Source: a virus. From it: 34,368 nt of DNA. The notes under the pieces were generated by a model. The model was given only the letters and a program-made list of their open reading frames with translations. It made no database searches and was not told where the DNA came from. The translations under genes were made by a program, and so were the position numbers. The DNA is taken from positions 1 to 34,368 of the IMG/VR virus record IMGVR_UViG_3300004369_000062; one strand, 5' to 3'. Below are positions 9,001 through 23,178 of the stretch, in pieces (position 1 is the first letter of the stretch; each line of letters begins with the position of its first letter).

Positions 9001-12000
9001 GTTGACCTTGGATTACTTCAGTTTGCCTTCCCACATGGTATTCCTAACGGATCCGAAGTTACTCTGAATGTTGTAGATACTGGTGATGGAGCAGACTTCC
9101 CACTTGCTGCTGGCGCTTTGGGTAGATTAAACAGTTCTACCACATATTTTGCAATTACTGGTTCTGCAAACTCTCTTGAAGATGACCAGATGAAGTTGGC
9201 AATTACTGCTACTAACGCAGAACTTGGTGATGCTATTAGTTTTGTCAATGCTGGTGTTGGTCGTCAGCAAGTATTAACTGAATCATTCGGTGGTGCTGCA
9301 ACTGCTAATGTTACTACCTCGACCTTCCTCGAAGGTGAACTTGTTTATCAAGGTGATTCTCTTGCTACTTCTACAGCAACTGGATATGTTTCCACTAACA
9401 GCGGATGGCAAGTTGGTCCTAGAATCCTGAAGATTGTAAATTACATTGGAGATTTTATTGAAGGTCAAACTGTTACTGGTGTTGTATCCAAGTCCTCTGG
9501 TTTAATTAGCGACCTCAAGATTGCTAAGGGCGTTCTTGATATTGGTTCTATTACAAAGACCACAGGACAATTCATTGATGATGTTGGTAAACCCTCCGAG
9601 ATTATTCAAAAAATCCAAGACTCTTACTATTATCAAGATTTCTCTTATGCTGTTAAATCTGCGGTTTCTATCAGTGAGTGGAAGGATATTCTTATTAAGA
9701 ATGTACACCCAGCATCGTTTAAGGTATTTGGTGAATTAAATCTTAGCGAGTATTCTAATATTCCAAACAAGACAACTGATTTCCAGTTAACTAAATCTGT
9801 TGAACTGGCACAAGAAGCAATTGTTCCAAATATTCAAAACTTTGCTCTGGTTGAACCAATTTACAGTGAGTTTAATAATACTGAAGTTCTATTCCGTCAA
9901 AAACGTCTAACCTCTTCGGAGAATATTCTTACCTCGGTTGTACAAAGAGTCGATGATATCTCAAACTTGTTTGATGGTGAAAGAATTGCATTCCCTCTGA
10001 CAGTTGATGGCAACAACATCGTTGCTAATGCCAACCAATTAATGATTGTTTTGAATGGTGTTGTTCAAACTCCAAATACATCCTTTGAAATTCAGAATGA
10101 TTCTATCGTATTCAGTGAACCACCAGCACCTCCTGCTAGTGTTAAGTATGTAAACACCACAATTGAACAAATTAATACTGTTGAATTGCAGTTTATCAAT
10201 ACAAGTGGCATTTTCCCCAACATTGGTAATACCGTTGTTGGTACTGCTTCTGCTGCTCGCTTGACAGTTACCAGAGTTTCTGGAAATAGCATTTTTGGTT
10301 TTGTTACTCAAGGTACTTTCCAAAATACTGAACTTTGCACAGTAGGCGCTACTGGATTTGCTGCCAATCTTTCCGCTCAAATTGCAGTATCTAATAGTGG
10401 TTTGTTTATCTTTGGCGAGACTGTAACAGACCTTTCTGGTGATACTGCAGTTGTTGAAAGTATTAACTTGGAAACAGGACAAGAATTACCTCTTGCAAAA
10501 CTGCGTTATACCATTGGTCCTTCTACAACAACAGTTGAAGTTATTGATTATTCTGCAGCAACAGACTCTCCTGTATCGGATGGAACTTTTGTCTTGGGTG
10601 AAACCTATCAGTTTGGTTCTGAAATCTTCTTAATCAACACTATTACTAATGGTGTGGAATCTACTACGTTAAACGTAACGAGAGCACAATCTGGTACAAC
10701 TGCTGTATCTCAACAAGAAGATGCTCCTATCTATGGAACTCAGATTGCAATCAATAATGAATTGACATTAAGTAAGACTACTGGTACTTATCAGTCTACT
10801 CCTGGTCTCTTTGATATTCAACTTAACGACATTATTATTGGTGCTCAGTCTGGCGTTGTTGCTAGAATTACATCTACATCAACTTATCAGGATCCTGTAA
10901 CTCAAGAGTTTATCGGTCAAGTTAATATTTCGGAAGGTTCTTCGTTCTTTGGTCTTCTGTTCAACAGAATTACTTCAGCAACTTATCCAAATGTCGTTCT
11001 CGACGATATTTCCAAGTCTCAAGTAACTATTGTCGATTTTGAAGATAATACAACTCCATTTAACACCAATTTCCCAGCGAATGAGTTAATCAACAACTAT
11101 GTTATTCCTTATGATAATGCAAGTGGAGATTTCCAAGAAAATGAATTTATTAGAAATTATCTGATTGAATATGGTAATAGTAGTGGAGATTATGTTGCTG
11201 GTGAGGGTGCTGTAATTAGAAAAATTACTTTTAAAGACCAGCAAGGAACTGGATTCTTCTCGTCGGGTCAAATTATCAAGACTAGAGATACTAAGGCAGA
11301 AGTTATTGGATATAACCAAGCACGTAAGACAATCTATCTTGGTAAGATTGGTAGAATCTTAAATTCGGGTCAGGATTATCATACAGCAACTTTCAACAAT
11401 AGTGCTCAGTTAGATACTGCTCAGAAGAAGTTTGGTTCTTCTTCCTTACTACTGGATGATGCCACTACTGATTATCTCTTCATTCCAACTTCTACTGAAT
11501 TTGGTTTTGGAACAGGAGCATTTACTGTTGAATGCTGGATTCGTCCAGATGATGTCTCTGCTGGTGATAGACATATCTTTGATATGAGAGATGGCGGTGG
11601 TGATGCAAATGCTGGTAGACTTTATGTTGCCACAAACCAAGTACGCTTTAATATCGGTGGCAGTGACGTTGTTACGTCTGGTGCAACAACTCTTTCTGCA
11701 GATACTTGGCATCACATTGCTATCACTAGAAGTGGTACTGATTTGAAGTTATTTGTTGATGGTTCTGAAGTTGGAAGCACCACTAACAGTACCGATTTAG
11801 GTTCTACAAAACGTCTCTTTATTGGATCTAATTTTAGTGCTGCAAATAGATTCTCTGGTCACATCGATGAGTTTAGAGTTTCTAACACTGGTCGCTATAG
11901 CGCAGCATTTACACCACTTAACGGTATCTTCCAAGGTGATAGCAATACCAAACTACTTCTTCACTTAGATGGTGAAGATGCTCAAACTTACACTGAAGAC

Positions 12001-15000
12001 TGGTCTGGTGGTGAATCTCTTACTAACGGTGAAGAGTTCCACAATGATGCAATCTTAGCAACCTCTAGACTTGCTGGTGCTCCTGCTGGATTCACAGGTA
12101 ACTCCCACAGAGTCTATAACGCAGCAGAATCTATCAGACTGAACAAAGACTTTATTGCTCAAGAAACGGTATATCTGCTTCTCCAGCAATATCCTTCTTT
12201 AGTTATTCCTGGTGGTAATGTTAACTGCGAAGATGACATTCGTGATGTCTTAGACCAGATTATCGAAGACCTTAAGAATGGTTCCAACAGTCACATGTGG
12301 GATGCTGCAGCAATCTATGTTGATAGAACTCAGAATCCTGTAACTCTCAATCATATTGAGACTGAAGTTACTGAAACCATCTGGGCATTCAACAAAGTCG
12401 ATGAAATGCTTCAGTACATCATCAATAACGTTGCTTGGACTGTTCAGGGCGACCATGGATTGACTCAGACTCTCAATACCGATGCAACTAACATCTATGA
12501 GACTGGTTCTGCAAACCTTAACAACTGTGCTGACGTTTATACCACAATCAATAACTTGATTGATATCCTGACGGATACCCTTTCCGAAGCAGATACCCCC
12601 AGTGCAACTCCTGATGGCGACCATCTTGGCACCATCACTAAGGTTGAACCTGCGTTTGAGTTCTTTGGTGGAACAGTTGATGCATTCTACGAAGTAGCAT
12701 TTAATGTCGATTACCATAATGGAACTAATGATACAATTTATACAAATCAAATTGATACCGACTCTAGAAATAGATTCTATGATGCTGCAAACTTAATTCG
12801 TAAGAATCGTGCTGTTATTATTGATAAAGCATCTGCAGACCTCCTCAACAGGTATCCTGACCTTGCTCTGGACATGCCTAGAAATGAAGGAGGAACTGGT
12901 GATGGAACCCTGCGTTGTAAGACTGATTTGGGTCTCATTTTAGATGAGATTGCAACTGACATTCAAAATGGCGGTAATATCAATACCGTTGGTGCTGCTA
13001 AGTTCTATCTTGGTGCCAATGATATTCTGCTCCACATTCGTTTGCAAGTATGGCAGTCTGTTTTTGCTCATAATCGCCTTGGTTTCTACATGAAACAGGC
13101 AATTACTGGTGATTTGGATTATACTAATACCACTAATATTATTGTAGGTGATTGGGGAATTACTAATGACCCAGGTGGATGTGCTGACGTTCAGTCTGCA
13201 ATTGATACTTTAATTGATACCCTTAATGATGTCATTGCACCAACTGATAATGATTATGCAATTGCTGCAGATAGACTTTACTTCAATAGAGATTATATTC
13301 GTGATGAAATTTTTGGATTAGTCGAAGACGAATTAACATATACTTTGAATAATGTCAATTTTGTTGTATTTACTTACAATAGTGAGTTAGATATTGAAAG
13401 TTTGATTATTGCTATTATTTCCGATCTTCAAACTGGTGGTAATAATAGCAGTATTGCTGAAATGGAAAAATATTTGACTGCTGCTCTCAATTTGACCACC
13501 ATTGACAATGTTCTTCCTGCTGCAATATTTGCACTGGAGAAGTTAAAAGAACTTGGAGAATATGCAATTAATAATGTTCTTTATAATAGAGCAAGTACAG
13601 GTCCTGTTGGTAGCTATTCTGCTCTTCATGCCACTCAAGATGCATATAGAGATGGTGAGTCTCCAGTAACAATTGCAAATCCGTATGCGAGATTTGGTGT
13701 ACTTGTCGATTCTCTGAAGGGAATAATTTCTCCTGGTGGCGACGAGGCAAGACATGCCGCAAAACAAATTCAATATAATGAAAATTACTATAAAGATGAA
13801 CTAGAAACAATTGTTAATACTCAATTTGGATCTGGCTCTTGGGTTTATGATGATTTTGTTGGAACAATTGTTGACGATTTAGTACACGACTTAATCATTA
13901 CAGATACCACAGATACAAGTACTGCATACACGATTGCTATTGAAACTGTTACTGATTCGTTTATCGTTGGTGAGACAGTAACTTCTAGTGGTGGTGGAAC
14001 TGCAGATGTTCTTGAATATGATGAAGATTCTGCTAAGTTATATATTGGCGATTTTACTGGAACTGCTTGGGTTGCTGGTGATACGTTAACTGGCGGAGAA
14101 TCTGGTGCTACTGCAACTATTTCTGGTGGTGGAACTGGTTCTGTATTCTTTGATGGTTCTAATGACTACCTGAGAATTCCTTCGGTAAATGCATCGTTTG
14201 CTTTTGGTACTGGTCCAATTACCTTTGAGTGCTGGTTTAGACCTACCACTACTGGTGGAGGACATATTTCTGGCTCTACATCCGACAACTTCAATATTTT
14301 CTATGGAACTGGAAATATTGGTTTATGGGGTGGTAGTGGAACATTTATGAATTTTGGTGCAAATATTCAAATTAACACTTGGTATCATGTTGCTATTGTT
14401 AGAACTGGAACTGGATTTAATCAAACTTCATTCTATCTGAATGGCAATAGAATTGGTTTTGGTACTTGGCAAACAAACTATGGTTCTATTGAATTATTAC
14501 TCGGTCGCCCCAATCTTGGTGGTGGTAATGAGTTAGATGGTTACCTCTCTAATGTAAGACTACTTAAAGGTGTTGCATTGTATAGTGGAAGTGGATTCCA
14601 AGTCCCAACAACACCACTCTCTGCGATTTCTGGAACTTCACTTCTTACTTGTCAGGGAGCTTCCATCACAGATGCTAGCTCGTATAATCATACAATCAAT
14701 CCACAAGGTAATGTTGTTGGGGGAACAACTCCTAGCCCATTCTCTACATCTGGTGGTATAAGTGCTTCTTACGATTGGTACAATAATCCTGGTAATGTTA
14801 AAATTCTTAACACTGCTAGAAACATTATTTCGCCCATCGAAGGTTTGACTTCCACCACAAACCTTTTCCCATCACCAGAAGATTTGAGTTCTACTGGATG
14901 GTCTGGTGGCGGTATTCAGGTTGTTACCGACAACTTAGATTCCCCAGATAATACATTAACGGCAGATAAATTGGTAGCAACCAGTGGATTCTATGGATTC

Positions 15001-17754
15001 CATCAATGGTCTAAAGATTTTAGTGTAGATGCTTACACAACTTTTGATGATATTGCAGCACGCTTTGATTCTGATATTATTACTTTCGATGCTGGTACTA
15101 ATGCAACTGACGAGAATCGCACATACACCTTCTCCGCTTTCTTAAAAGCGGGCGAATCTAGTCTTATGAGATTGGAAGTTATTCTTGACCCAGCTGTAGG
15201 CGGTAAGATTGCATTTGTTGATGTCGATTTGAATTCGGGAACAGTAGGAACCATATTCACTGTAGGGAACGTTACTTCTCCTGCTGCTGGTGTCATTCCA
15301 TATGGTAATGGTTGGTATAGAGTTTATGTTAGTGTAACGTTTGGATTTGGTATTTCAGTTGTTCAAACTCGTTTTTGGGTTAGAAGTTCTACAGGAGCAT
15401 TTACATATACTGGTAATGGCATCGATGGTTTGTATGCTTGGGGCACTAAACTAAATGTTGGTCTTCTTGACCCATATGTAGCGGTTTCTGGAAGAATATT
15501 CTATTCCGATACAGATTATAATATCAAGAATTTCATTATGGATGCACTTGAAGATTATATGGGTAAATCTCTCAATAATACTTTGACTTCTCCATCCACT
15601 AATGCTGGTTTCTATAAATTCTATGATTCTACTATTGCCTCCTCTTATACAAAGGCAACAATTGATTCTTTCATTAGATATCAGTTGAATATCATTAGAA
15701 ATCAGTTGGATAATAGCAATTATTATATTGATATTAATACCAATAATGCAATTGTCGTTCCATCCAAGACTTATGGCACTCGTGATATTCCAGTAGGAAT
15801 TGGCGGTGGTATATCTAATTCGGAGTACTTCTACGGACTTCAAAGTAATGTATATGGTGAAGTTGAAAGACTTTCACTTAATGAAGGTAAGATTGTTAAG
15901 GTCTACCAGAGATTCCGTATCGATGGTGACATCACTGATGGTCCCTTCACAATGAATGAAACCGTCTTTAAACAAGGTGCTCCTAGTGTAACTGGTGTTG
16001 TTTATGGATTCTATGAAGATGAAAACTACAAATATTTGGATGTCGAAATAACTGCAGGACCATGGGCAATTACCAACACTATTATTGGCGATGAAAATTC
16101 AACTTCAGCACAAATTAGTGCTATTGAGAATCGTATTCATATAATTGATTTGTTGGGTAATTTCTCTGAGGATACTCCCTTCAGAGGTTACACCTCTACA
16201 GAAACCGCTACACCAACTGATTTCTTAAAAGTTCAAGCAGCGGTAACAAGTAATGTAGGCGGAACACTTACTGTTGATACAGAGACACTCGAAGGTCAAT
16301 TCGAAACAACTAGTGTTGTATATCCAGAAACGTCTAGAGAATATCTCGAAGTTTCCAAGTTCGCTGGTCTGGATGTTAAGATTGGAGACAGAATTGCTTC
16401 CAATGGATATATTAGACTTGGTGTTGCTTTTATTGGTGGATTAACTGATTTTACAGTAGGGAATCGTCTTTATAATGTTTCTGGAGGTGTTCAGGATAAT
16501 AATACATATGGCATTATTACTTTTGTTGATATTGATAATAACTTTATCTACATTCAGGAATATCAGGGAACTTTCCAAAATGGTGACACAGTTGGAGACT
16601 ATGGATTGGGTGAAACCTTCCCCATTGGATACGCTTCGATTTCTACCAAAGTTGCAGTAGCAGGTGCTGCAGCAGCAAGAGTTCAAGATATTCGTGCTGC
16701 TGGTTTGAATACGAGACTTTACATTTCTGATATTGATGGAGCATTTGACATTAAGGATTCTATTATTGGTCCAGATAATTATGAAGCGGTTATTGTTTCT
16801 AAGGATGAACTGAAAGCTCGTGTTCAACGCGCATTTAGAGGATTTGATGGCACTCAAACAACATTTGACCTTACCATTGATAATGGCACTGCATATTTAC
16901 CTGACCCTGCAGGTCATCTTTTGGTATTTGTTAATGGTATTCTCCAACCTCCTGGTGCAACAAATGCATTCACCGCATTCTCGAATCAAATTCAATTTAC
17001 AGAGGCACCAGATCTCGGCGCATCATTTACTGGATTCTATGTTGGTAAACTGAGACAACTTGATGATATCTCCTTTGAGTTTGACTCTTTACGTCAGTCC
17101 TTCAACCTTAAGCGTAATGATGTTTTCTACTCGCTCACGCTTACGGATGGTGTTCAGTCCAGTACAATTAGACCAGAAAATAATATCATTGTTTCTCTCA
17201 ATGGTGTTATTCAAGAACCTGGTGTTGCGTTTGAGATTGTTGGTTCTAGAATTATTTTCTCTGAAATTCCTCGCGTAGGTTCCACATTTGTTGCCTTCTC
17301 TTATGTTGGTTCTGAAGCAGACGTTGATGCTGCTGAAGTTATCCCACCAATTGAACCAGGTGATTTTATTGCAATTCAAGGTGAAACTGAAGACCGAGAA
17401 GTTGCAGTTATTGAATCTTCTAACTCTCTAATTACTTTTGATTATCTTGGCTCTGTCTTCGGACAGAAGGCTGCAGGAACAGCAGTTCTTACCAGTGGAT
17501 TTATTGATGATGTACAAGTTACATCTGGCGGTTCTGGGTATCTTTCTAGACCAACAGTTAGAATTGACTCCATTTCTGGTTTTGACGGAAACATCAAAGC
17601 TTTAATTGGTGTTGCTGGCATTGAAATCTCTAATTCTGGTACTGGATATCAAAATCCAAATATTGAAGTTGAGACTAGTGTTCCTGATGATTGGACTGCT
17701 CCTAATCTTGCTGATTATGGTGAAGAGTTGATTGACCCCGAAATAGTTTCCTAA
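1..17754 (+). CDS. Giant virion structural protein, 5'-truncated by window edge
   Basis: The frame is open from base 1 to a TAA at 17752-17754, giving 5917 visible residues; the true start is upstream. A TTG at 673 could be mistaken for the start, but in-frame coding with the same repeat type runs before it. Visible order (residues counted from base 1): beta module 1-57; GGxGY repeats 58-370; a DFYxxKGT/LYGE/YPKD motif block about 449-485; a YHYH-type domain 799-1300 split by GGxGY repeats 881-1110; an EF-hand-like loop 1360-1371; a propeller-like region 1581-1960; LamG domains at 1961-2180, 3787-3997 and 4713-4900; GGxGY repeats 2754-2997; a YYQDFSY/VHPASFKVFGE block about 3208-3245; helical repeats 4034-4640; a jelly-roll domain 4953-5155; tandem LNGVxQxP modules 5615-5774; and terminal GGxGY repeats. 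No signal peptide or membrane segment was seen. It lies just before the gp8 cluster, in the slot held by T4 gene 7, so I infer a baseplate or fibre component that displays glycan-binding domains. Structural role is likely; the exact location in the virion is unknown. Confidence 0.88.
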   Translation, partial: EPIVDEFVIAVYDNTLLIPKVDFYIDKDLFIFKTAPTNGRFLSIYSVEAPVPSFGSSASAFARVNENGEIDNIVVSEFGTQYRYEYPPKVTIQSLSGKGASATTLVNGIESVTLLNGGQGYSDTNPPAVVIESPVEPGSIPAQINATVSNGSITSLTIVSSGSGYTFTPRISFRQPGGAKLNPPTIVGGSISGDVTVSQTGFGYTTTPEIYIDEPTGENPIKASLRAVLTNGEVTSVEVLNAGQGYLTTPRIAVIDPVGASVLETTVDSNGRLVGIELLNGGSGYTDVPSVYVVDNRPNGGTGATAVASIFNGRITDINITNFGNGYSVTEPPTIVIQSPPQGKASATVGLNKVTGFTVNKAGSGYTKAKFEGCARAASGIVNYLEDGNAVFSNNTTATASSVGTEVKCLDALFVKRLLDKYTEQFLPDVPSLDYKSIDVRTAIKTIKDFYSAKGTSFSISYLFKLLYGEQVSVSYPKDQIIKPSAATWSVDTILRATLVSGDPANIRDALIVQEADIADVNVGNASALVENFISIKTSDVEIYEIVISEETIQGQFTVPYKTKLAEPLATDTSIITVDSTIGWPERNGEFVIGGGELVQYKEKSLNQFIECTRSVNGVVEDWDSATEVTSNFRVYLNKGTPQEVVMNVVGIVDAQQTTLTDTGSYYLPGDKLTVSKLGGTSERSELTTWLYNVKKLISVTDVQFGGIDDRFASVTCQNPHGLLVGDQVTVYGANPIIYNGSFLVTSRDSETVFQYQLPQPATVVPQGNILVSVDLNKGKSTNSAILNAIGPYTTNVQNSFFNDDYVYVASTGIPNYEVGPFPGSALLPGNQRKLNRFPLTPVTISTKNLINPGPIGTWVNGVSIWSYKSTESRTFGAVTSIDITNAGSDYDAASPPNITISNGGGTGATASVVVDGSVSEIAVTNGGSGYTSSPLVSIVGGGGAGASATAIITKGVVSRILINNGGIGYTSQPSITIVGGGGQGATGTASVRGPVKSISVTNGGSSYTSKPDITLSSGTGAVAQAIVNDGRIISIAIISAGQGYTTAPEVTIQGEGFGAVARAVIDTDGENAGRVTSIQIINRGIGYSSGTTVINLNSIGSGATFSANVFQWTYNLQKTSFLDSSKGGVFAGYNNQYGGEYAHLSNPQRLRYILGDNLFQNTSNQILEQEDQLEHSPIIGWAFDGNPIYGPYGYDDPTNQSSQIARLNSSYRLKTNIVFNDITNPYPSRVAGPLLTEESAGTFIEDYEYIFGLGDLDQYNGRFCKTPDFPNGRYCYFVTIDSTEAGNAVFPYVLGPSFNSVVDSWNLNSDAVQQNIPTGVVRYRDPYENVDIDVERTPNASTNSLTTEDGDVLLFEVEDENRDGIISQDETDDPDEIFEESPLQLFDYFPKVRFDSKVDIEVETTTKFENASVTGFTVENAGQNYQVNDNLIFDNAGTSGTGVSARVSRIKGEEISSLTFENISGDNFGVLTTTNPHNLEVSDTIFLDYSPVMDNTNKQFTVRQYKGIEEIVINQVGSGYNEDIPPTIIIDGDGQSAELQAVVSSVGSIDTVNIINSGYGYTSNPRVILSHPQIFKKADYYVSLIENNDYVKVNDVAVNSNKEVFVCGKTKDVSGNTVAFVSKLSATGVKEWEKTLESTSGLNYTEAQKLYVDGSNVWVVGILNSNSLILNAYNPDIFLAKYTQSSDGLSATLAFQNAYSGISGATRADYVTSIKKYSDTRFVIGGYTNTNSSNPHDAFIATIDTTGNFAIKRKLASAAKSEKLTEFVISGDNIYFCLETASSDVSNDVSVAFGKATLGVSAITVDWIYNVSNTLYSFLDTSITKDEFNEYYITATLRLKSDNTTKDSFWVGKFDSTGDTIWNKRYLVSGGSVTVAEKSAIDIFGDLNVAFTKVATSNLKKTVESVKIGYDGIIKNHTSNDFNLNNIEGITVHSLDSDVSGDVHLFGQTSWNRNEFIFEFAETDDATDTTGHYTPTLIGNDATESLALVGDGVAKLLGEDIGNPGIWENAAIKFAASDLGTKLGEDWTVEFMLYKDAATSQTQSQTQQTLFAIGDATDATGGLWLYYDMGNGQLELVVTNNTTSINATGSGLTSAQTNMFADNSWQFVGLKKENNTFTAYVNGIQIFTGTILNTSLGNKDLHFGNIPGKNATPASFAAAYQGQYYLDNLRLRNRAVTPTVPTDITSLPPVATYALAFNWVDDAWFTTNLNQYDYIDYAGFGIKVDKNADSARLGDKGEQSNTGIGLERSAVSIVTGSTLTITSVGYALGDSGFQSLDFDDAITTMSQGTEALEYSNDVWSSRTATVPSPGSKKLSVTAVVKDRYFFKVTDTVKIDNVQELTINQSFTFTLGSKLVLNNSGTFVNSGYITKIDNANKKIYLAVNNNSWSNDLNIGELSTEQFSEQNTYGIVGPIPNDINEITAYNFGQIDNTTPGTFDIDLANFDAPEGGSNNLDQFAKFKPYTETEYSIRIDEVSTSSFIVGSVITLSGNDISFNSDYTTAQITNLTGVLKISVVSNLTKVLQVTAVSNSDEVYVITDTSHYLSEGEVIFVDGNPSEQVGQIVYDEYDGSFSVDKVISPLEFTYKLPQNAVTSPATSSGDVSIFVKSPVLKMYYGHQYLFDLSHSSMVGGNLSFAKDNLYKLEYSFNSIERIGTPGLTGEGQPTPTVKFKVDEDIVTNISYYFDPSRTGNDSPVIPGSYLDVTFSPYRGTFTISSISGATITRGADTFKFPLLNEPEGNAVVSNASYSTSSVKAVGSISDIRIVNPGGFYQKLPIVTGIQSTRNIERVQINDPGTEYAVGVYNGVPIQGDGEGGFVQITVADGTDDEGTLIPGQIQKVLVTSPGRGYTTASIDIPSISGILGAGLTGSGADLEVVIPPFGTGASIFTVGANVGKIKKLKNNNFGYDYPHDYTLRPEITFPINCQLTSTSILDSITVTDPGSGYTQAPAVVIEGGGGSGAIAEATIRNGRLDQIIVKDPGAGYSSTPTVTLKSSFNYVINVDLGLLQFAFPHGIPNGSEVTLNVVDTGDGADFPLAAGALGRLNSSTTYFAITGSANSLEDDQMKLAITATNAELGDAISFVNAGVGRQQVLTESFGGAATANVTTSTFLEGELVYQGDSLATSTATGYVSTNSGWQVGPRILKIVNYIGDFIEGQTVTGVVSKSSGLISDLKIAKGVLDIGSITKTTGQFIDDVGKPSEIIQKIQDSYYYQDFSYAVKSAVSISEWKDILIKNVHPASFKVFGELNLSEYSNIPNKTTDFQLTKSVELAQEAIVPNIQNFALVEPIYSEFNNTEVLFRQKRLTSSENILTSVVQRVDDISNLFDGERIAFPLTVDGNNIVANANQLMIVLNGVVQTPNTSFEIQNDSIVFSEPPAPPASVKYVNTTIEQINTVELQFINTSGIFPNIGNTVVGTASAARLTVTRVSGNSIFGFVTQGTFQNTELCTVGATGFAANLSAQIAVSNSGLFIFGETVTDLSGDTAVVESINLETGQELPLAKLRYTIGPSTTTVEVIDYSAATDSPVSDGTFVLGETYQFGSEIFLINTITNGVESTTLNVTRAQSGTTAVSQQEDAPIYGTQIAINNELTLSKTTGTYQSTPGLFDIQLNDIIIGAQSGVVARITSTSTYQDPVTQEFIGQVNISEGSSFFGLLFNRITSATYPNVVLDDISKSQVTIVDFEDNTTPFNTNFPANELINNYVIPYDNASGDFQENEFIRNYLIEYGNSSGDYVAGEGAVIRKITFKDQQGTGFFSSGQIIKTRDTKAEVIGYNQARKTIYLGKIGRILNSGQDYHTATFNNSAQLDTAQKKFGSSSLLLDDATTDYLFIPTSTEFGFGTGAFTVECWIRPDDVSAGDRHIFDMRDGGGDANAGRLYVATNQVRFNIGGSDVVTSGATTLSADTWHHIAITRSGTDLKLFVDGSEVGSTTNSTDLGSTKRLFIGSNFSAANRFSGHIDEFRVSNTGRYSAAFTPLNGIFQGDSNTKLLLHLDGEDAQTYTEDWSGGESLTNGEEFHNDAILATSRLAGAPAGFTGNSHRVYNAAESIRLNKDFIAQETVYLLLQQYPSLVIPGGNVNCEDDIRDVLDQIIEDLKNGSNSHMWDAAAIYVDRTQNPVTLNHIETEVTETIWAFNKVDEMLQYIINNVAWTVQGDHGLTQTLNTDATNIYETGSANLNNCADVYTTINNLIDILTDTLSEADTPSATPDGDHLGTITKVEPAFEFFGGTVDAFYEVAFNVDYHNGTNDTIYTNQIDTDSRNRFYDAANLIRKNRAVIIDKASADLLNRYPDLALDMPRNEGGTGDGTLRCKTDLGLILDEIATDIQNGGNINTVGAAKFYLGANDILLHIRLQVWQSVFAHNRLGFYMKQAITGDLDYTNTTNIIVGDWGITNDPGGCADVQSAIDTLIDTLNDVIAPTDNDYAIAADRLYFNRDYIRDEIFGLVEDELTYTLNNVNFVVFTYNSELDIESLIIAIISDLQTGGNNSSIAEMEKYLTAALNLTTIDNVLPAAIFALEKLKELGEYAINNVLYNRASTGPVGSYSALHATQDAYRDGESPVTIANPYARFGVLVDSLKGIISPGGDEARHAAKQIQYNENYYKDELETIVNTQFGSGSWVYDDFVGTIVDDLVHDLIITDTTDTSTAYTIAIETVTDSFIVGETVTSSGGGTADVLEYDEDSAKLYIGDFTGTAWVAGDTLTGGESGATATISGGGTGSVFFDGSNDYLRIPSVNASFAFGTGPITFECWFRPTTTGGGHISGSTSDNFNIFYGTGNIGLWGGSGTFMNFGANIQINTWYHVAIVRTGTGFNQTSFYLNGNRIGFGTWQTNYGSIELLLGRPNLGGGNELDGYLSNVRLLKGVALYSGSGFQVPTTPLSAISGTSLLTCQGASITDASSYNHTINPQGNVVGGTTPSPFSTSGGISASYDWYNNPGNVKILNTARNIISPIEGLTSTTNLFPSPEDLSSTGWSGGGIQVVTDNLDSPDNTLTADKLVATSGFYGFHQWSKDFSVDAYTTFDDIAARFDSDIITFDAGTNATDENRTYTFSAFLKAGESSLMRLEVILDPAVGGKIAFVDVDLNSGTVGTIFTVGNVTSPAAGVIPYGNGWYRVYVSVTFGFGISVVQTRFWVRSSTGAFTYTGNGIDGLYAWGTKLNVGLLDPYVAVSGRIFYSDTDYNIKNFIMDALEDYMGKSLNNTLTSPSTNAGFYKFYDSTIASSYTKATIDSFIRYQLNIIRNQLDNSNYYIDINTNNAIVVPSKTYGTRDIPVGIGGGISNSEYFYGLQSNVYGEVERLSLNEGKIVKVYQRFRIDGDITDGPFTMNETVFKQGAPSVTGVVYGFYEDENYKYLDVEITAGPWAITNTIIGDENSTSAQISAIENRIHIIDLLGNFSEDTPFRGYTSTETATPTDFLKVQAAVTSNVGGTLTVDTETLEGQFETTSVVYPETSREYLEVSKFAGLDVKIGDRIASNGYIRLGVAFIGGLTDFTVGNRLYNVSGGVQDNNTYGIITFVDIDNNFIYIQEYQGTFQNGDTVGDYGLGETFPIGYASISTKVAVAGAAAARVQDIRAAGLNTRLYISDIDGAFDIKDSIIGPDNYEAVIVSKDELKARVQRAFRGFDGTQTTFDLTIDNGTAYLPDPAGHLLVFVNGILQPPGATNAFTAFSNQIQFTEAPDLGASFTGFYVGKLRQLDDISFEFDSLRQSFNLKRNDVFYSLTLTDGVQSSTIRPENNIIVSLNGVIQEPGVAFEIVGSRIIFSEIPRVGSTFVAFSYVGSEADVDAAEVIPPIEPGDFIAIQGETEDREVAVIESSNSLITFDYLGSVFGQKAAGTAVLTSGFIDDVQVTSGGSGYLSRPTVRIDSISGFDGNIKALIGVAGIEISNSGTGYQNPNIEVETSVPDDWTAPNLADYGEELIDPEIVS
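172..1110 (+). repeat. GGxGY beta-repeat array 1 (in giant protein)
   Basis: Encoded units of about 40-50 residues follow the pattern xxVxVxNGGxGYxxxPxVxI, then a Gly/Ala-rich turn and xAxVxxGxV. Examples are LLNGGQGYSDTNPP (from about base 340), SSGSGYTFTP, NAGQGYLTTP and LNGGSGYTDVPSV. This repeat type is common in phage fibre and baseplate proteins and is expected to form stacked beta elements. At DNA level the units share short near-identical words such as aatggtggcagcggatata. Confidence 0.8.
2395..3900 (+). other. YHYH-type domain split by a repeat insertion
   Basis: The first part has GPIGTWVNGVSIW from residue 854 and the second part has FDGNPIYGPYGY (residues 1184-1195), SSYRLK, EDYEYIFG and a PDFPNGRYCYFVT strand. 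These are the landmarks I associate with the YHYH domain family (PF14240). Between the two halves lies a GGxGY repeat array (2641-3330). The place where YHYH is expected, just before a NPxxLRYxLGDN stretch, reads YAHL (residues 1142-1145). The call rests on remembered family landmarks. Confidence 0.6.
2641..3330 (+). repeat. GGxGY beta-repeat array 2 (in giant protein)
   Basis: This is the most regular array in the window. Successive units carry TNAGSDYDAASPP, TNGGSGYTSSPLV, NNGGIGYTSQPSI, TNGGSSYTSKPDI, ISAGQGYTTAPEV and INRGIGYSSG, separated by GGGGxGA turns and spaced about 115-130 bases apart. It sits inside the YHYH-type domain. Confidence 0.85.
4225..4725 (+). repeat. GGxGY beta-repeat array 3 (in giant protein)
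   Basis: Diverged units: ENAGQNYQVNDN, NQVGSGYNEDIPP and NSGYGYTSNPRV. A HGL-type beta module (TTTNPHNLEVSDTIFL) is interleaved between the first and second units. Confidence 0.65.
4740..5880 (+). other. Beta-propeller-like (SBBP-type) region in giant protein
   Basis: Residues about 1581-1960 contain repeated blade-like strands: DVAVNSNKEVFVCGKT followed by AFVSKLSATGVKEWEKT; KLYVDGSNVWVVGI followed by IFLAKYTQ; DTRFVIGGYT followed by DAFIATIDTTGN; and YYITATLR followed by FWVGKFDSTGDTIWNKR. The scheme [AxD..N.YVxGxT]-[DAFVxKxDxxGxxxWxK] matches SBBP beta-propeller repeats (PF06739-like). I count roughly six blades by eye. It is probably a binding platform; no catalytic residues were identified. 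Confidence 0.55.
5881..6540 (+). other. LamG/concanavalin A-like domain 1 in giant protein
   Basis: The order of strands AIKFAASDLG, WTVEFMLYKDA, LFAIGDAT, GGLWLYYDM, WQFVGLKKENNTFTAYVNG and YYLDNLRLRNRAV fits the LamG_3 jelly-roll pattern (VEFWLYxxD ... WxxVxLxxxxxTxxxYxNG ... GxxDNxRxxxR). This fold commonly binds glycans; the ligand here is unknown. Confidence 0.65.
7825..8145 (+). other. Possible degenerate cupredoxin-like domain in giant protein
   Basis: The stretch YYGHQYLFDLSHSSMVGGNL, then IERIGTPG, VKFKVDED and NISYYFDPSR resembles the phage cupredoxin-like scheme (RGxTYxFDxSxxSxxGHPLxFS ... GTPG ... LYYYCxxHxxM). The Cys-x2-His-x2-Met ligand loop is absent: after YYF comes DPSRTGN. 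The identification is tentative. Confidence 0.35.
8260..8990 (+). repeat. GGxGY beta-repeat array 4 (in giant protein)
   Basis: Units include VNPGGFYQKLP, NDPGTEYAVGVY, TSPGRGYTTASI, TDPGSGYTQAPAVVIEGGGG and KDPGAGYSSTPTVTL. These favour DPGxGY over the NGGxGY of array 2, so they form a separate subfamily of the same repeat. Confidence 0.75.
11360..11990 (+). other. LamG/concanavalin A-like domain 2 in giant protein
   Basis: This is a textbook LamG_3 layout: FGSSSLLLDDATTDYLFIP, FTVECWIRPDD, HIFDMRDG, GRLYVATNQVRFNI, WHHIAITRSGTDLKLFVDG, FIGSN, FSGHIDEFRVSNTGRY and a closing LLLHLDGED. It is the best conserved of the three LamG units and probably adheres to cell-surface glycan or protein. 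Confidence 0.85.
12100..13920 (+). repeat. Alpha-helical repeats of about 155-160 residues (in giant protein)
   Basis: Diverged units begin YNAAESIRLNKDFI (12115), YDAANLIRKNRAVI (12778), IAADRLYFNRDYI (13261) and HAAKQIQYNENYY (13753). Each is followed by E/D-I-hydrophobic helices; the first two carry a Cys-containing DDIRDVLDQIIEDLKNGSN or CKTDLGLILDEIATDIQNGGN segment and a later NNCADVYT or GGCADVQS segment. This contrasts with the all-beta character of the rest. I have seen similar repeats in marine phage structural proteins, but I know of no established function. The fourth unit is interrupted by the LamG 3 and jelly-roll insertion. Confidence 0.65.
14137..14700 (+). other. LamG/concanavalin A-like domain 3 in giant protein
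   Basis: The strands VFFDGSNDYLRIP, ITFECWFRPTT, NFNIFYGTGNIGLWG, WYHVAIVRTG, FYLNGNRIG, ELLLGRP and LDGYLSNVRLLKGVALY match the LamG_3 pattern (FDGxxDYLxxP ... FExWF ... WYHVAxVRxG ... NGxxxG ... GYxSNVRxxxGxAxY). The closing LLTCQGASITDASSYNHT is also typical of this family. Confidence 0.85.
14857..15465 (+). other. Carbohydrate-binding-like jelly-roll domain in giant protein
   Basis: The order NLFPSPEDLSSTGW, PDNTLTADKL, RTYTFSAFLKAGES, VDLNSGTVG, GNGWYRVYVSVTF and GLYAWGTKLNVG matches a jelly-roll module common in phage tail fibres (LFPxSExxxxxxW ... PDGTxTADKL ... YTFSxxLKAGE ... GNGWYRxxV ... WGAQLExG). It is inferred to be glycan-binding. Together with LamG 3 it interrupts the helical repeat series. 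Confidence 0.7.
16845..17320 (+). repeat. Tandem LNGVxQxP beta modules (in giant protein)
   Basis: Two adjacent copies: LLVFVNGILQPPG ... NQIQFTEAPDLGASFTGFY, and IIVSLNGVIQEPGVAFEIVG ... IIFSEIPRVGSTFVAFSY. A third copy lies at 9946-10170 (LMIVLNGVVQTPNTSFEIQN) and a fainter one at the window start (bases 1-171). The scheme resembles a short beta-sandwich repeat used in phage fibre proteins. Confidence 0.65.
17500..17670 (+). repeat. GGxGY beta-repeat array 5 (C-terminus of giant protein)
   Basis: Two units, VTSGGSGYLSRPTVRI and ISNSGTGYQNPNIEV, close the protein before an acidic tail of about 27 residues. Confidence 0.75.
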
Positions 17755-17790: not shown

Positions 17791-19011
17791 ATGGCTAAGC
17801 AAACACTAGGTCTTGGTGCCACCGCTAATGATAATACAGGTGATACTCTTCGTACTGGCGGCGACAAGATTAATGACAACTTCAATGAGGTTTATGGAGC
17901 CATTGGTAATGGTTCAACCTTACAAATCAGTGTGTCTAATCCCGCTGTAGGGCAAGTACTCCGTTACAATGGCAGTACATTTCTACCTTCGGACTATAGT
18001 TTATTAACATCTGCTTTAGATGTTAATGGCAATTCTATTATTTCCAGTTCTAATGGAAATATTGCAGTTGCTCCAAATGGAACTGGAGATATCACTCTTT
18101 CTGCTGGTAGTGTAACTTCGACATTTGATGGCGCTACTGGGAACATTGATTTTCCAACTAAAATTTCGTATAAGAACGAATATGCTTCTGTTGGAGTTGC
18201 TCCTTCTGCAGTATCTTATCCTGGATTTTTCTTTACTGTAGATGGTGATGATAGTCCATATGTCAACATGAATATTACGGCTGGTGGTGTTGGTGATACT
18301 AGAGTTGCTCTTTTAACTGAATATAATGGTATTGGAGATTTATCCAACGTAGATGTAACTACTACAGCACCAACAAATAATCAAGTATTAAAGTGGAATG
18401 GAACGAATTGGGTTCCTGGAGATGATGCTGCTGGAGCTGGAGAGCAAAATATTTTTGCTACGATTGTCGCAGATACTGGCAGCACTACTGCGAATAGTGC
18501 TTCGGATACCTTAACTATTACTGGTGGCACTAATATTTCAACCTCTATTACTGGCGATGCTGTTACAATTGATTTTGATGGAACTTTAACTACTACATTT
18601 GCCGCTTTAACGGATACTAATGTTTCTGGCATCACCCAAGGCGATTCTTTATATTGGAATGGTACTTCATGGGTAGTTACAAGAAGTCCAATTACATGGT
18701 GGGAATTGGGTGCTAACGGAAGTACGGATTACACATTTAATGGTCCTGGGTTTGCTTCTGCAACAAATGACCCAACATTATATGTGCATAGAGGGTTTAC
18801 ATATGCATTTGATAATAGTGTTTCTGGTGGTGCTCATCCATTCAGAATTCAATCTACTCAAGGATTAACAGGAACACCATATACTACAGGACAAACTGGT
18901 AGTGGAACTTCCGTCCTTTATTGGACCGTTCCTATGGATGCTCCTACTACACTGTACTATCAGTGTACTATTCACGCAGCAATGCAAGGTACTATTAACG
19001 TCGTAAGTTGA
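17791..19011 (+). CDS. Virion fibre-like protein with C-terminal cupredoxin domain
   Basis: 406 residues. The N-terminus (LGLGATANDNTGD, then KINDNFNEVYGAIG) is the NDxTGDxLRxGGxKINxNFxELY motif seen at the start of many phage tail-fibre and structural proteins. The middle has short fibre-like repeats, e.g. QVLRYNGSTFLPSD, QVLKWNGTNWVPGD and DSLYWNGTSWVVTR. Residues about 300-406 form a cupredoxin-like domain: YTFNGPGF, TLYVHRGFTYAFDN, GGAHPFRI with H349, then TLYYQCTIHAAMQGTINVV with C392, H395 and M398. That is a complete His/Cys/His/Met type-1 copper set, with ligand loop spacing C-x2-H-x2-M (plastocyanin has C-x2-H-x4-M). It starts 36 bases after the giant gene behind a late promoter and ends 3 bases before the next start codon, so it is co-expressed with the 1387-residue protein. 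Structural role is confident; copper binding is not shown. Confidence 0.85.
   Translation: MAKQTLGLGATANDNTGDTLRTGGDKINDNFNEVYGAIGNGSTLQISVSNPAVGQVLRYNGSTFLPSDYSLLTSALDVNGNSIISSSNGNIAVAPNGTGDITLSAGSVTSTFDGATGNIDFPTKISYKNEYASVGVAPSAVSYPGFFFTVDGDDSPYVNMNITAGGVGDTRVALLTEYNGIGDLSNVDVTTTAPTNNQVLKWNGTNWVPGDDAAGAGEQNIFATIVADTGSTTANSASDTLTITGGTNISTSITGDAVTIDFDGTLTTTFAALTDTNVSGITQGDSLYWNGTSWVVTRSPITWWELGANGSTDYTFNGPGFASATNDPTLYVHRGFTYAFDNSVSGGAHPFRIQSTQGLTGTPYTTGQTGSGTSVLYWTVPMDAPTTLYYQCTIHAAMQGTINVVS
18690..19008 (+). other. Cupredoxin-like domain with full copper-ligand set
   Basis: Residues about 301-406 of the 406-residue protein. Putative ligands are H349, C392, H395 and M398, carried on the HPFRI strand and the YYQCTIHAAM loop. 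Cupredoxin-like domains are a known accessory of marine phage structural proteins. Confidence 0.7.
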
Positions 19012-19014
19012 TAA

Positions 19015-22000
19015 ATGGCAAGAATCGTTCCTGGGTCTGGCGCTTCAATCGAACCAATCTTTGACGAGGTTTTTGGTGTTCGTGCAGTTAAAGTTATCAA
19101 TGGTGGTAGCGGATATGACCCCGCAGATCCTCCTAGATTGACTATTACTGGTTGTGGAACTCCTGAAGTTGAAGCATTATTGTATCCAATTATTGATGCA
19201 AATTCGGGAAAAATTATTCACGTTCGTGTTTTAGAAAGAGGTAGAGGATATAATCCGTTAAGATTAAAAATTACACCTCAACAAGAAACTCCTAATATAA
19301 TTAATTCATTTGATATTAATAGGATTTGGCAAAATCACCCCAATTCTCAAACAACGGGGTCTTTTCAGGTTCAAGATAATAATATAACAGACAGACTACG
19401 TATTGTATCTGATAATCACCCCAAACCATCTCAAAATATTTTTTCGGAAAGACAACCAGGGGGTTCTAGTGAAATATTAGACAGAACTTTTGACCAAGTT
19501 TTTGTTTATAGGGGTGGAAAGGATGTTCCTACACAAGGGACTAGAGAAGTTCAATTAGATAAGACCTTAGGAATCCTAGCAAACGGTGGATTATTACACA
19601 CTCCTGATTGGGGTGTTGATGGTGGAGCTCCAGCAGGGTATCATTTAGATGCTGTAAAATATGACTACATTAAAAATACCAATGCTTATGGTGCAGTAGT
19701 AGATAACAACACATATTACTATCAAACTAGTAAAGTTATAGATGAATTTGCACTCAATAATGGTGTATTTGATTGGGGCAATTTTAGAGTATTCACCTGG
19801 AATATTCGAGTAGAATTTGATAATGTGATGATTCCAGTTGCTGATGTAGATGAAACCATTGGATCTGTAGAAGTTGGCAGAATTATTGATGAAATTGGAG
19901 GAACTGGCAGAGCAGAAATTTCTAAAGTTGTTAGAAATGAACTCAATAGAGTAACAAGAATCTATGCGCGACAAGTTACAGGAGACCCATTCTCGGAAGA
20001 TGATTTAGTTCTTGGTTCTAATGGTTTCCAGTTTAGGGTATCTGATGATATTGTTACATTTCCTAACGGTATCTTTTATATCGATTTCGGACTAGAAGCA
20101 GAGGAATTTGGTCCATTTGTTCCTGGACAATTTTACTTATCCCCAGAAAATATTAAAGTTCAGAGAAATTACATAATCCGTTGGAATCAAGAACACTCTT
20201 CTAATCAACCCTCAGATGTTCATCCAAATGGACATCCAATGCAATTTAGCACCACTCCAGATGGTCCTCTAAATCAAAATCCTGGAACTTTATATTACAA
20301 TAGTACTGGACTGAGTGCATCACCTGCTACAGACTACGAAAACGAATTTGCTCCACTATTCTTGATGAATAGTGATGAAACTAATAGAATTTATTATTAT
20401 TGCAAATTCCACAACCATATGTCTGGTTATCTTGGTGATGAAGGATATATGACTCTTGATGCTGTTAATATTGACCCACTTCCAAATATTAACACGTATT
20501 ATCAAGATATTTATTCGTATCCTGGAGATCAATCTAGACATCCAAATGGACATTCCAAAATTCTTGGTATGTCTTTTGATGGATATCCCATCTATGGTCC
20601 TTGGGGATACAATTCTTCTGGTGCAGTTGCTAGAGAAACAAGTTCCTATAGATTGAGACTTACTGAAGAACTTCCTGGAAGTCGTCCTATTGTTTCTGAT
20701 GGTGGAACGACAAACTACACCGTTACCGTATCAAATGGTAAGTTTTACATCAATGGAGTATTACAAACTTTCTTAAATTTAAAGAGAGGAAACACTTATA
20801 ATTTTATTCAGGATGATTCTAGTAATGATTCGCTCAACATTCTATTTTTCAGTGAAACTTTGAATGGTTGGCATGACGTATCTGATATTGGAAATGTAAA
20901 TTACCTATATCAAAATGGAGTTACCTATTATCTTGAAAATATTGCTGTAGATTATGTTACCTATATCAATGGTTACGAAAATGCCTTCAATAGAAAGGTT
21001 ACTATTGAAGTACGTGCTGATGCCCCAAGAATTTTATATGCGTTCTCGTATTCAACTTCAACTGCTGGGTTTAGACTTGTACAAGATGGTTACTTACTTG
21101 GTGATTTAGTAGAAGACTATATTTACGATTCTACAGTAGGTTCTTTAGATGAGTTTAATGGTAAGTTTACTAGAACTCCAGATTATCCAAATGGAACTTA
21201 TGCATATTTCTTAACAGAAGATGGTAGTGGAAATCCAACTTACCCTTATGGAGTTGGACCAAAGTACTATGGCGATCCATTATTTGAAGGAGATGATGTT
21301 CCTGAACTGGTAACAGTATTCCCGTCGGAGTCTGAAGGAAATGTTGTTCTCAATGAAGATGGCAGCATCTCATATATTAAAATGACCAAAAAGGGAGATA
21401 ATTATTTTGGTTCTGCTAGAGCAGAAATTCTTGGTGGAGGAGGGTCTGGAGCGGTTGTAAGTCCTATTGTACAGACTATTACTGGTTTATCTCTTATCAA
21501 TGCAGGTAGAAATTACGCAACACCTCCTACTTTAATTTTTGAAGGTGGTAGTGGTCAAGGTGCTCAAGGTGCAGCATCAATCGATACTTTGGGTAAAGTT
21601 TCCTCTATTACTATTGTAGATGATGGGGAATTTTATCAAGAACCTCCATACATTTTAATTAGTGGCGGTGGTGGCAGTGGTGCCAAAGCTGTTGCTAGAA
21701 TCGACCAAGGCTCTATTGTTGGTATTGATGTTACCGACCCAGGTGAAGGATATGTAAACCCACCAAATATCATCTTTACAAAATTAGTAAATCTCAAACG
21801 TAAAACTAGATCGAGACAGGCATTTAACTCTGGTGCAATTTATCTGACTGGTCTTGTTAAAAATGTTACTGCATCGGATTCTGAAATTTTTGTAGATTCT
21901 ACAGATGCATATCCTGGTTCTGGTCAGATTATTATTAATACAGAAACGATTACTTACACCAATAAGAGTTCTGGTAGATTCTCTGGATTGACAAGAGGTG

Positions 22001-23178
22001 TAAACTTTAATTATGACCAACGAGTTATTCTCGATCCTGGACAAAATGATGCCCAAGGAAATTCTACTTATGCATTTAATGTTGGTGATAGAGTTATCCG
22101 TAGGGTTGAAAATGCTAATAACAAAGTAGCAAAAGTATACGATTGGAATCCTGGAACTAGAGAACTACTTGTAACGTTTGAAGTTGATGAACTGGCATTC
22201 ATTGATGGTGGTATTCCATCTACAGAAGATGCAATTGTTCAGTTTGATGCTGGGGTTGCTAGTAGTAGTGGTCCTGGAATATTGCCACATACAGTTATTA
22301 ATGAAGTCGGTTCTACTATTTCTCTGCTGACCGTTCCTCTTTCTACATTACAAAATAGAGCATTCGAAGATGATGATGAGCAGGATGGCGCTGGCGATGG
22401 TATTCCAGATTTAATTAACACTGGAACTGATTATGCCAGTCAAATCAGTCTTGATGGTGGTATTTACAATTCTCTTTATGGTATCGAAGAGACTCAAGGT
22501 GGACAAAATACTACACTGTTCCAAATTGGAGATAACATCAAAGATGGTAGTATTCCTTTCAAATTTGCAACAATTGTTTCTGCTGGTGGACTGGGTGAGG
22601 GTGTTGAGCATACGGCATTATTGGACATTTATTTAGATGCTAATAATGGAAATGGTCAGAACTTTACCGTTAATGAAGTTGTCACTGGTGCAATTTCTGG
22701 TGTTACTGGGGTAGTTGTTTCTTGGGATCCAACTATTTCTAAGTTGACTGTTGGAAATGTAACCCCATATAACACAGGTAATGTAAATATTGGTATTGGC
22801 GGTTATTTGTATGAATTTTCTGCCAATAATACGGTTGTAGATTTCATTATTCATGACAGCGGGACAAATTATACAGCAACGCCAACAGTTTCAATTGAAA
22901 ATGTAGGCGATATTCAGGCAACTGGTACTGTTGTAATGACAGCAGCAGGAGACCAAGTTAGTTCTATTACTATCACCAATGGGGGATATGGCATAGAACA
23001 AACTGTAGACGGAACCTATAATCTTCATCCTACAGTAACATTTACAAACGACCCAGGAGATAGTACTGGTTCTGGTGCATCTGCTCAAGTAGTTCTTGGT
23101 GGAGAAACTCTCAGCGGAAACGCTGGAGCATCTTATAGAATCAAGAGAATCGAGTATTCAACAACGGTTCGTTCGTAA
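19015..23178 (+). CDS. Virion structural protein with cupredoxin and YHYH-type domains
   Basis: 1387 residues; the ATG lies 3 bases after the preceding stop. Visible parts: GGxGY repeats at about 22-95 (VINGGSGYDPADPP); a cupredoxin-like domain about 384-480 with H407 or H403, C463, H466 and M469 (YYYCKFHNHM); DGYPIYGPWGY at 522-532 and SSYRLR, typical of the YHYH family; a second, ligand-less cupredoxin-like domain 567-687; then the remaining YHYH-family strand with PDYPNGTYAYFLT near 718-730; GGxGY repeats 799-924 (INAGRNYATPP, DDGEFYQEPP, DPGEGYVNPP); a VDSTDAYPGSGQI/ETITYTN/GLTRG module near 960-1000; an acidic DDDEQDGAGDGIPDL loop near 1120; a GExVTG-type module; and C-terminal GGxGY units. 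It lies next to gp8 and is inferred to belong to the baseplate or its fibres. I do not know a T4 counterpart by sequence. Confidence 0.85.
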   Translation: MARIVPGSGASIEPIFDEVFGVRAVKVINGGSGYDPADPPRLTITGCGTPEVEALLYPIIDANSGKIIHVRVLERGRGYNPLRLKITPQQETPNIINSFDINRIWQNHPNSQTTGSFQVQDNNITDRLRIVSDNHPKPSQNIFSERQPGGSSEILDRTFDQVFVYRGGKDVPTQGTREVQLDKTLGILANGGLLHTPDWGVDGGAPAGYHLDAVKYDYIKNTNAYGAVVDNNTYYYQTSKVIDEFALNNGVFDWGNFRVFTWNIRVEFDNVMIPVADVDETIGSVEVGRIIDEIGGTGRAEISKVVRNELNRVTRIYARQVTGDPFSEDDLVLGSNGFQFRVSDDIVTFPNGIFYIDFGLEAEEFGPFVPGQFYLSPENIKVQRNYIIRWNQEHSSNQPSDVHPNGHPMQFSTTPDGPLNQNPGTLYYNSTGLSASPATDYENEFAPLFLMNSDETNRIYYYCKFHNHMSGYLGDEGYMTLDAVNIDPLPNINTYYQDIYSYPGDQSRHPNGHSKILGMSFDGYPIYGPWGYNSSGAVARETSSYRLRLTEELPGSRPIVSDGGTTNYTVTVSNGKFYINGVLQTFLNLKRGNTYNFIQDDSSNDSLNILFFSETLNGWHDVSDIGNVNYLYQNGVTYYLENIAVDYVTYINGYENAFNRKVTIEVRADAPRILYAFSYSTSTAGFRLVQDGYLLGDLVEDYIYDSTVGSLDEFNGKFTRTPDYPNGTYAYFLTEDGSGNPTYPYGVGPKYYGDPLFEGDDVPELVTVFPSESEGNVVLNEDGSISYIKMTKKGDNYFGSARAEILGGGGSGAVVSPIVQTITGLSLINAGRNYATPPTLIFEGGSGQGAQGAASIDTLGKVSSITIVDDGEFYQEPPYILISGGGGSGAKAVARIDQGSIVGIDVTDPGEGYVNPPNIIFTKLVNLKRKTRSRQAFNSGAIYLTGLVKNVTASDSEIFVDSTDAYPGSGQIIINTETITYTNKSSGRFSGLTRGVNFNYDQRVILDPGQNDAQGNSTYAFNVGDRVIRRVENANNKVAKVYDWNPGTRELLVTFEVDELAFIDGGIPSTEDAIVQFDAGVASSSGPGILPHTVINEVGSTISLLTVPLSTLQNRAFEDDDEQDGAGDGIPDLINTGTDYASQISLDGGIYNSLYGIEETQGGQNTTLFQIGDNIKDGSIPFKFATIVSAGGLGEGVEHTALLDIYLDANNGNGQNFTVNEVVTGAISGVTGVVVSWDPTISKLTVGNVTPYNTGNVNIGIGGYLYEFSANNTVVDFIIHDSGTNYTATPTVSIENVGDIQATGTVVMTAAGDQVSSITITNGGYGIEQTVDGTYNLHPTVTFTNDPGDSTGSGASAQVVLGGETLSGNAGASYRIKRIEYSTTVRS
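20164..20455 (+). other. Cupredoxin-like domain, ligands present (1387-residue protein)
   Basis: NYIIRWNQEHSS, HPNGHPMQFSTTPDG and RIYYYCKFHNHMSGYLG follow the cupredoxin order. C463, H466 and M469 give the same C-x2-H-x2-M spacing as in the neighbouring 406-residue protein; H403 and H407 are candidates for the first His. Confidence 0.6.
20713..21075 (+). other. Degenerate cupredoxin-like domain without copper ligands
   Basis: NYTVTVSNGKFYINGVLQ, LNLKRGNTYNF, DDSSNDSLNILFFSET and APRILYAFSYSTSTAGF track the phage cupredoxin scheme strand by strand. The expected GHPLxF strand reads DSLNILFF and the expected YYYCxxHxxM loop reads YAFSYSTSTAGF, so all four ligands are missing. It sits between the SSYRLR and EDYIY parts of the YHYH-type domain. 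Confidence 0.6.
21409..21786 (+). repeat. GGxGY beta-repeat array in the 1387-residue protein
   Basis: Units are INAGRNYATPPTLIFEGGSG, VDDGEFYQEPPYILISGGGG and TDPGEGYVNPPNIIF, spaced about 120 bases apart. They are of the same family as the arrays in the giant protein. Confidence 0.75.

Follow-up and report, generated by a model that had tools for sequence, protein, structure and literature searches.

Two neighbouring genes in the structural region of a marine cyanophage encode proteins in which an earlier note had recognised cupredoxin domains with full His/Cys/His/Met sets. Are these domains genuine relatives of the type-1 (blue) copper proteins, and what could such a domain do on a phage tail? 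The window analysed here is a 34,368-base viral record, in which all positions are numbered from base 1. It covers a structural region of a T4-like phage, with Synechococcus phages S-RS29 and S-SSM5 as the top matches among annotated phages. Both open reading frames, and the residue numbers given for them, were confirmed:

17791..19011, + strand: 406-residue gp9-like baseplate wedge/tail-fibre connector protein (Pfam T4_gp9_10_N, PHROG 677)
19015..23178, + strand: 1387-residue baseplate wedge/putative fibre protein (PHROG 708)

The N-terminal gp9/10 domain of the 406-residue protein scores 37.5 bits against T4_gp9_10_N (cut-off 25), and PHROG 677 ("baseplate wedge tail fiber protein connector") matches the protein over its full length (E 1.9e-197). 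PHROG 708, a "baseplate wedge subunit" family, spans the whole 1387-residue protein (2362.7 bits). The same gene pair occurs in Syn9, in unchanged order. The family assignments (Pfam, PHROG) support the virion or baseplate location claimed for both proteins, which are probably components of the tail. A search of PDB sequences with both full proteins found no relative past the gp9/gp10 N-terminus, and thus no solved structure covers either of them. Upstream, one open frame of 5917 codons or more runs through positions 1-17754; it contains many short repeats and is VrlC-like in related phages.

The two domains and their putative ligands are located as follows:

18691..19008, + strand: cupredoxin domain 1 (residues 301-406 of the 406-residue protein), ligands intact; from the predicted fold, structural matches and ligand invariance
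18835..18837, + strand: codon of ligand H349, read from the sequence; invariant
18964..18984, + strand: codons of C392-x2-H395-x2-M398, read from the sequence; invariant
20056..20460, + strand: predicted cupredoxin domain 2 (residues 348-482 of the 1387-residue protein), ligands intact; from an independent profile (E 2e-7) and ligand invariance
20233..20235, + strand: codon of ligand H407, read from the sequence; invariant
20401..20421, + strand: codons of C463-x2-H466-x2-M469, read from the sequence; invariant

Structure prediction, one of the checks proposed for the cupredoxin fold, gives domain 1 a pLDDT of ~90, the remainder of the 406-residue model being poor. Foldseek matches the domain foremost to copper nitrite reductase, pseudoazurin and amicyanin, and the best VIA-align match is to a three-domain copper nitrite reductase, at the first of its domains (Z 10.2, rmsd 2.1 Å, 91 residues). 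Domain 1 is therefore confidently predicted to adopt the fold of type-1 copper proteins. Its superposition on copper proteins also lends indirect support to a convergence of the four ligands on one site. The 406-residue model also matches two BFVD entries annotated "beta-sandwich protein" (A0A481Z6J5 and A0A481YWX9, from pithovirus- and marseillevirus-like metagenomic viruses), which may be small cupredoxins of giant viruses.

Sequence comparison points the same way. When a profile of 12 diverse copies was searched against the PDB, the first 16 matches were all type-1 copper proteins, each weak (E 0.005 to 0.4) yet unanimous. All four phage ligands align with the H, C, H and M of nitrite reductase; the amicyanin matches are weak (E 0.025-0.2), one being a mutant aligned with the loop C-T-F-H-P-F-M, and the phage domains are not classed as amicyanins. 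A profile of the close relatives of domain 1 alone returned mostly noise besides nitrite reductase. The proposed comparison with curated cupredoxin families did not succeed: no Pfam or NCBIfam cupredoxin model exceeds its cut-off on the window domains, and the best curated score (Copper-bind, E 0.0048) belongs to one distant member of the module. The assignment to the cupredoxins thus rests on fold and ligands.

An independent profile excluded both window families and drew on six distant phage proteins only. It finds the 406-residue protein at domain 1 (E 2.5e-30), the 1387-residue protein (E 6.8e-11, with domain 2 as the best single domain) and, in the latter, a third domain (E 2.2e-4), whereas the best match to the reversed window proteins has an E of 0.06. 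This rules out a chance motif. Aligned directly by hhalign, the two window families pair at 31.8% probability (E 0.0005) with C, H and M in register; this is weak, so the link between domains 1 and 2 rests on the wider family. Judged by these profile matches, domain 2 is homologous to domain 1 and probably a cupredoxin.

The ligand residues are the most conserved feature of the module. H349, C392, H395 and M398 are invariant at 80/80 orthologue loci of the 406-residue protein, most x positions being variable, and H407, C463, H466 and M469 in all 70 orthologues of the 1387-residue protein that cover the site; the conservation that had been asked of homologues is therefore complete for both domains. 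The first histidine of domain 2 had been given as H403/H407. H407 holds in 70/70 sequences, but H403 is ruled out as a ligand, since the loop around it shows gaps in 39/75 aligned sequences and varies in others. Among 20 diverse copies with less than 60% identity to one another (mean 35%, lowest 16%), no column is invariant except those of the four ligands. The odds that four invariant columns placed at random would be the four predicted ones are near 4e-7, an approximate figure that assumes about 90 columns; the profile itself was built from intact copies. In the main survey, each of the 255 profile matches covering the site reads HCHM.

The set follows the type-1 (blue) copper order and aligns with the nitrite reductase ligands. 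The C-x2-H-x2-M loop is indeed shorter than the C-x2-H-x4-M of plastocyanin, as had been remarked, and equals the spacing of amicyanin. Asn is the usual residue after the first His in many blue copper proteins. In the phage domains this His is directly followed by Pro, so the phage site may not be classical.

The 1387-residue protein contains a third copy, absent from the earlier note, which is inserted into a YHYH domain:

20542..20679, + strand: YHYH domain, first part (Pfam PF14240 profile positions 90-134, E 3.2e-7)
20686..21090, + strand: cupredoxin-fold domain 3 (residues 558-692), nested in YHYH, with no C/H/M loop aligned (profile, VIA-align)
21097..21222, + strand: YHYH domain, second part (Pfam PF14240 profile positions 142-183, E 5e-10)

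Domain 3 enters between YHYH profile positions 134 and 142 and splits that domain in two; in the giant protein encoded upstream (frame 1-17754) an uninterrupted YHYH domain lies near 3409-3852. The profile match of domain 3 covers 20704-20925 (E 2.7e-7), and its VIA-align match is rusticyanin (Z 9.4, rmsd 2.9 over 99 residues). The position of the first ligand is occupied by Asn, Glu, Gln, Phe, Asp and others, His being kept in 11/66 copies. Other copies without the full set read DATM in PSS2 and KDHV or KDHT in P-HM1 and P-HM2. In P-HM2 and P-HM1 (L213 and L214, frames of about 4450 residues) the KDHT/KDHV copy stands directly before an intact HCHM copy, which indicates that ligands are lost in some duplicates. 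The last open reading frame (32477-34366), which is truncated, has a weak profile match (whole-frame E 0.006) that is either a further degenerate copy or chance.

Domain 3 retains the fold without the C/H/M loop, and the cupredoxin fold therefore does not need its ligands. This bears on the reading in which no metal is bound in life and the four residues persist solely because the fold needs them for packing. The ligand-less sister copies do indicate that the fold is used metal-free in some positions; the same copies, however, show that packing is independent of the ligands, and none of the main-survey copies covering the site has lost one, which makes that reading extremely improbable. Since the fold survives ligand loss and the intact copies are invariant, the intact sites appear to be under selection for metal. 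The suggestion of such selection was made from two genes; hundreds of sequences now support it, with the ligand-less copies as a control. From these sequence patterns, the intact domains are predicted, with high confidence, to bind metal.

Type-1 sites can take zinc in vitro. The virion might thus hold another metal, such as zinc, with copper incidental; the adjacent YHYH domain is itself predicted to bind zinc (PMC7824862). Against this, a strictly kept axial Met would be needless in a zinc site, and we consider another metal very unlikely. Copper accords with the unvarying axial Met better than zinc or iron does and is the likeliest metal; that the bound metal is copper is predicted as probable.

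The distribution of the module gives further guidance on its role. Several hundred of 50,697 phage records carry it, nearly all of them marine, and the carriers include phages of Synechococcus and Prochlorococcus, the siphovirus-like PSS2, and phages of Pelagibacter and Methylophilales (viral-contig scans were run with single-protein queries). The gp9-like protein carries it at its C-terminus, and proteins annotated as proximal tail fibre (S-SCSM1, P-SSM2) close to their N-terminus; it is also found in phage peptidase S8 (subtilase) proteins, and repeated or tandem copies occur. The peptidase S8 carriers are found in S-BM3 (L183) and AG-345-P14 (L084), the latter with its copy at the C-terminus of a 726-codon frame. 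Counted over whole genomes at E 0.001, Syn9 has 4 matches, two with intact sites and two without, P-SSM2 4, S-BM3 and PSS2 2 each, and S-TIM66, S-SCSM1 and Melnitz-3 1 each; P-HM2 has five module matches. At the same threshold, the module was not found in the whole genomes of S-PM2, HTVC008M, the freshwater S-CRM01, T4 or P-SSP7, and is therefore accessory rather than core machinery. A necessary role at gp9 in particular is ruled out, given that S-PM2, S-CRM01 and HTVC008M have no copy and that the S-SCSM1 copy sits on the proximal tail fibre protein; a separate 264-residue frame of S-SCSM1 has a match to the gp9-like profile that is limited to its first 47 profile residues. In bacterial genomes, a single pattern-based scan, which reaches close relatives only, found matches on four contigs, all marine and non-cyanobacterial; among them were a protein with a cadherin-like domain and another with DUF4214. 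The module is thus a mobile accessory of marine phage tail and baseplate proteins and of a few marine bacterial proteins.

The data give no support to mimicry of a host cupredoxin, which had been raised as one possible function. In the PDB search, nitrite reductase and amicyanin rank ahead of plastocyanin, and the bacterial matches are marine and non-cyanobacterial. A mimic of host plastocyanin is set aside, as neither the PDB profile search nor the bacterial scan yields similarity that would support it.

A redox or light sensor would use the oxidation state of the copper, near a photosynthetic host, to gate adsorption or baseplate triggering. The axial Met tunes the redox potential of type-1 sites, and in the phage domains the type-1 set is complete, axial Met included. 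P-HM2, which is reported to be unable to adsorb in the dark (PMC7112961), has its five module matches, against none in P-SSP7, which is infective in the dark. On the other hand, Methylophilales and Pelagibacter are non-photosynthetic, yet their phages have the module too, and a free particle has no known electron partner. Adsorption of S-PM2 is reportedly light-dependent as well, yet this phage has no copy, which weakens light-dependent adsorption as the reason for the module. Taken together, a sensor seems unlikely.

By analogy with the Ferrojan Horse hypothesis, an established idea for iron in phage tails, the displayed copper might instead be a lure recognised by a copper-binding or copper-uptake protein of the host surface. 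Cupredoxin sites largely bury their metal, which speaks against display, and no receptor is known. The module is located on tail and fibre proteins, as a lure would be, but its carriers are of several kinds, proteases included. Published work does describe phage tail fibres with potential iron-binding domains (PMC11705849). For copper, we regard a lure as distinctly unlikely.

The cupredoxin fold itself is old knowledge, and the phage domains can be set beside several known systems. The best structural match to domain 1, at 23% identity, is the N-terminal cupredoxin domain of the three-domain copper nitrite reductase of Hyphomicrobium denitrificans; this is an enzyme with further copper domains, whereas the phage proteins show no enzyme partner. 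Amicyanin of Paracoccus, among the best PDB profile and Foldseek matches, shares the fold and the H...C-x2-H-x2-M spacing; it differs in being a free periplasmic electron carrier rather than a domain of a tail protein, sequence similarity is very low, and the His followed by Pro sets the phage domains apart. Plastocyanin, including cyanophage petE, belongs to the same superfamily and gives weak profile matches, but it has the C-x2-H-x4-M spacing, and phage petE is a metabolic gene of host photosynthesis, not of the tail (PMC3037559). T4 gp9, the baseplate socket of the long tail fibre, is related to the 406-residue protein through a gp9/gp10 match confined to the N-terminal part; no counterpart of the C-terminal cupredoxin domain was found anywhere in the T4 genome. 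The YHYH domain, which sits beside the cupredoxin domains in the 1387-residue protein, is also predicted to bind metal but is a different domain; it has been described in phage tails as a predicted zinc hydrolase, with cupredoxins and copper unmentioned (PMC7824862). Searches of the open literature yielded no description of cupredoxin or copper binding in a phage tail, virion or cyanophage.

As a whole, the data are best explained by a mobile extracellular cupredoxin module with a copper-stabilised surface or adhesion role, a reading to which we give about an even chance. In each intact domain the two His, the Cys and the Met would coordinate a single copper ion, with amicyanin-like loop spacing. 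The proteins would be made in the reducing, copper-poor cytosol of the host, and copper would be taken up at or after lysis. The metal would then lock a disulphide-free beta-sandwich on the outer face of the baseplate/fibre joint, and the domain, so stabilised, could act in surface contact (adhesion) and be likened to the Ig-like decorations of other phages. That the main role is structural or adhesive and not redox is a proposition on which we stand evenly divided. There is a small chance that genuine type-1 copper centres are built into marine phage tails in such a way that their redox state or availability affects attachment or the triggering of infection.

To our knowledge, a blue-copper site has not been described in any virus particle. 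From four ligands unchanged in hundreds of relatives we would expect copper to be bound in the tails of many marine phages. Cyanophages rank among the most abundant viruses of the sea; if there is copper in their tails, they would amount to a store of protein-bound copper that has so far gone uncounted, and infection could be influenced by copper status.
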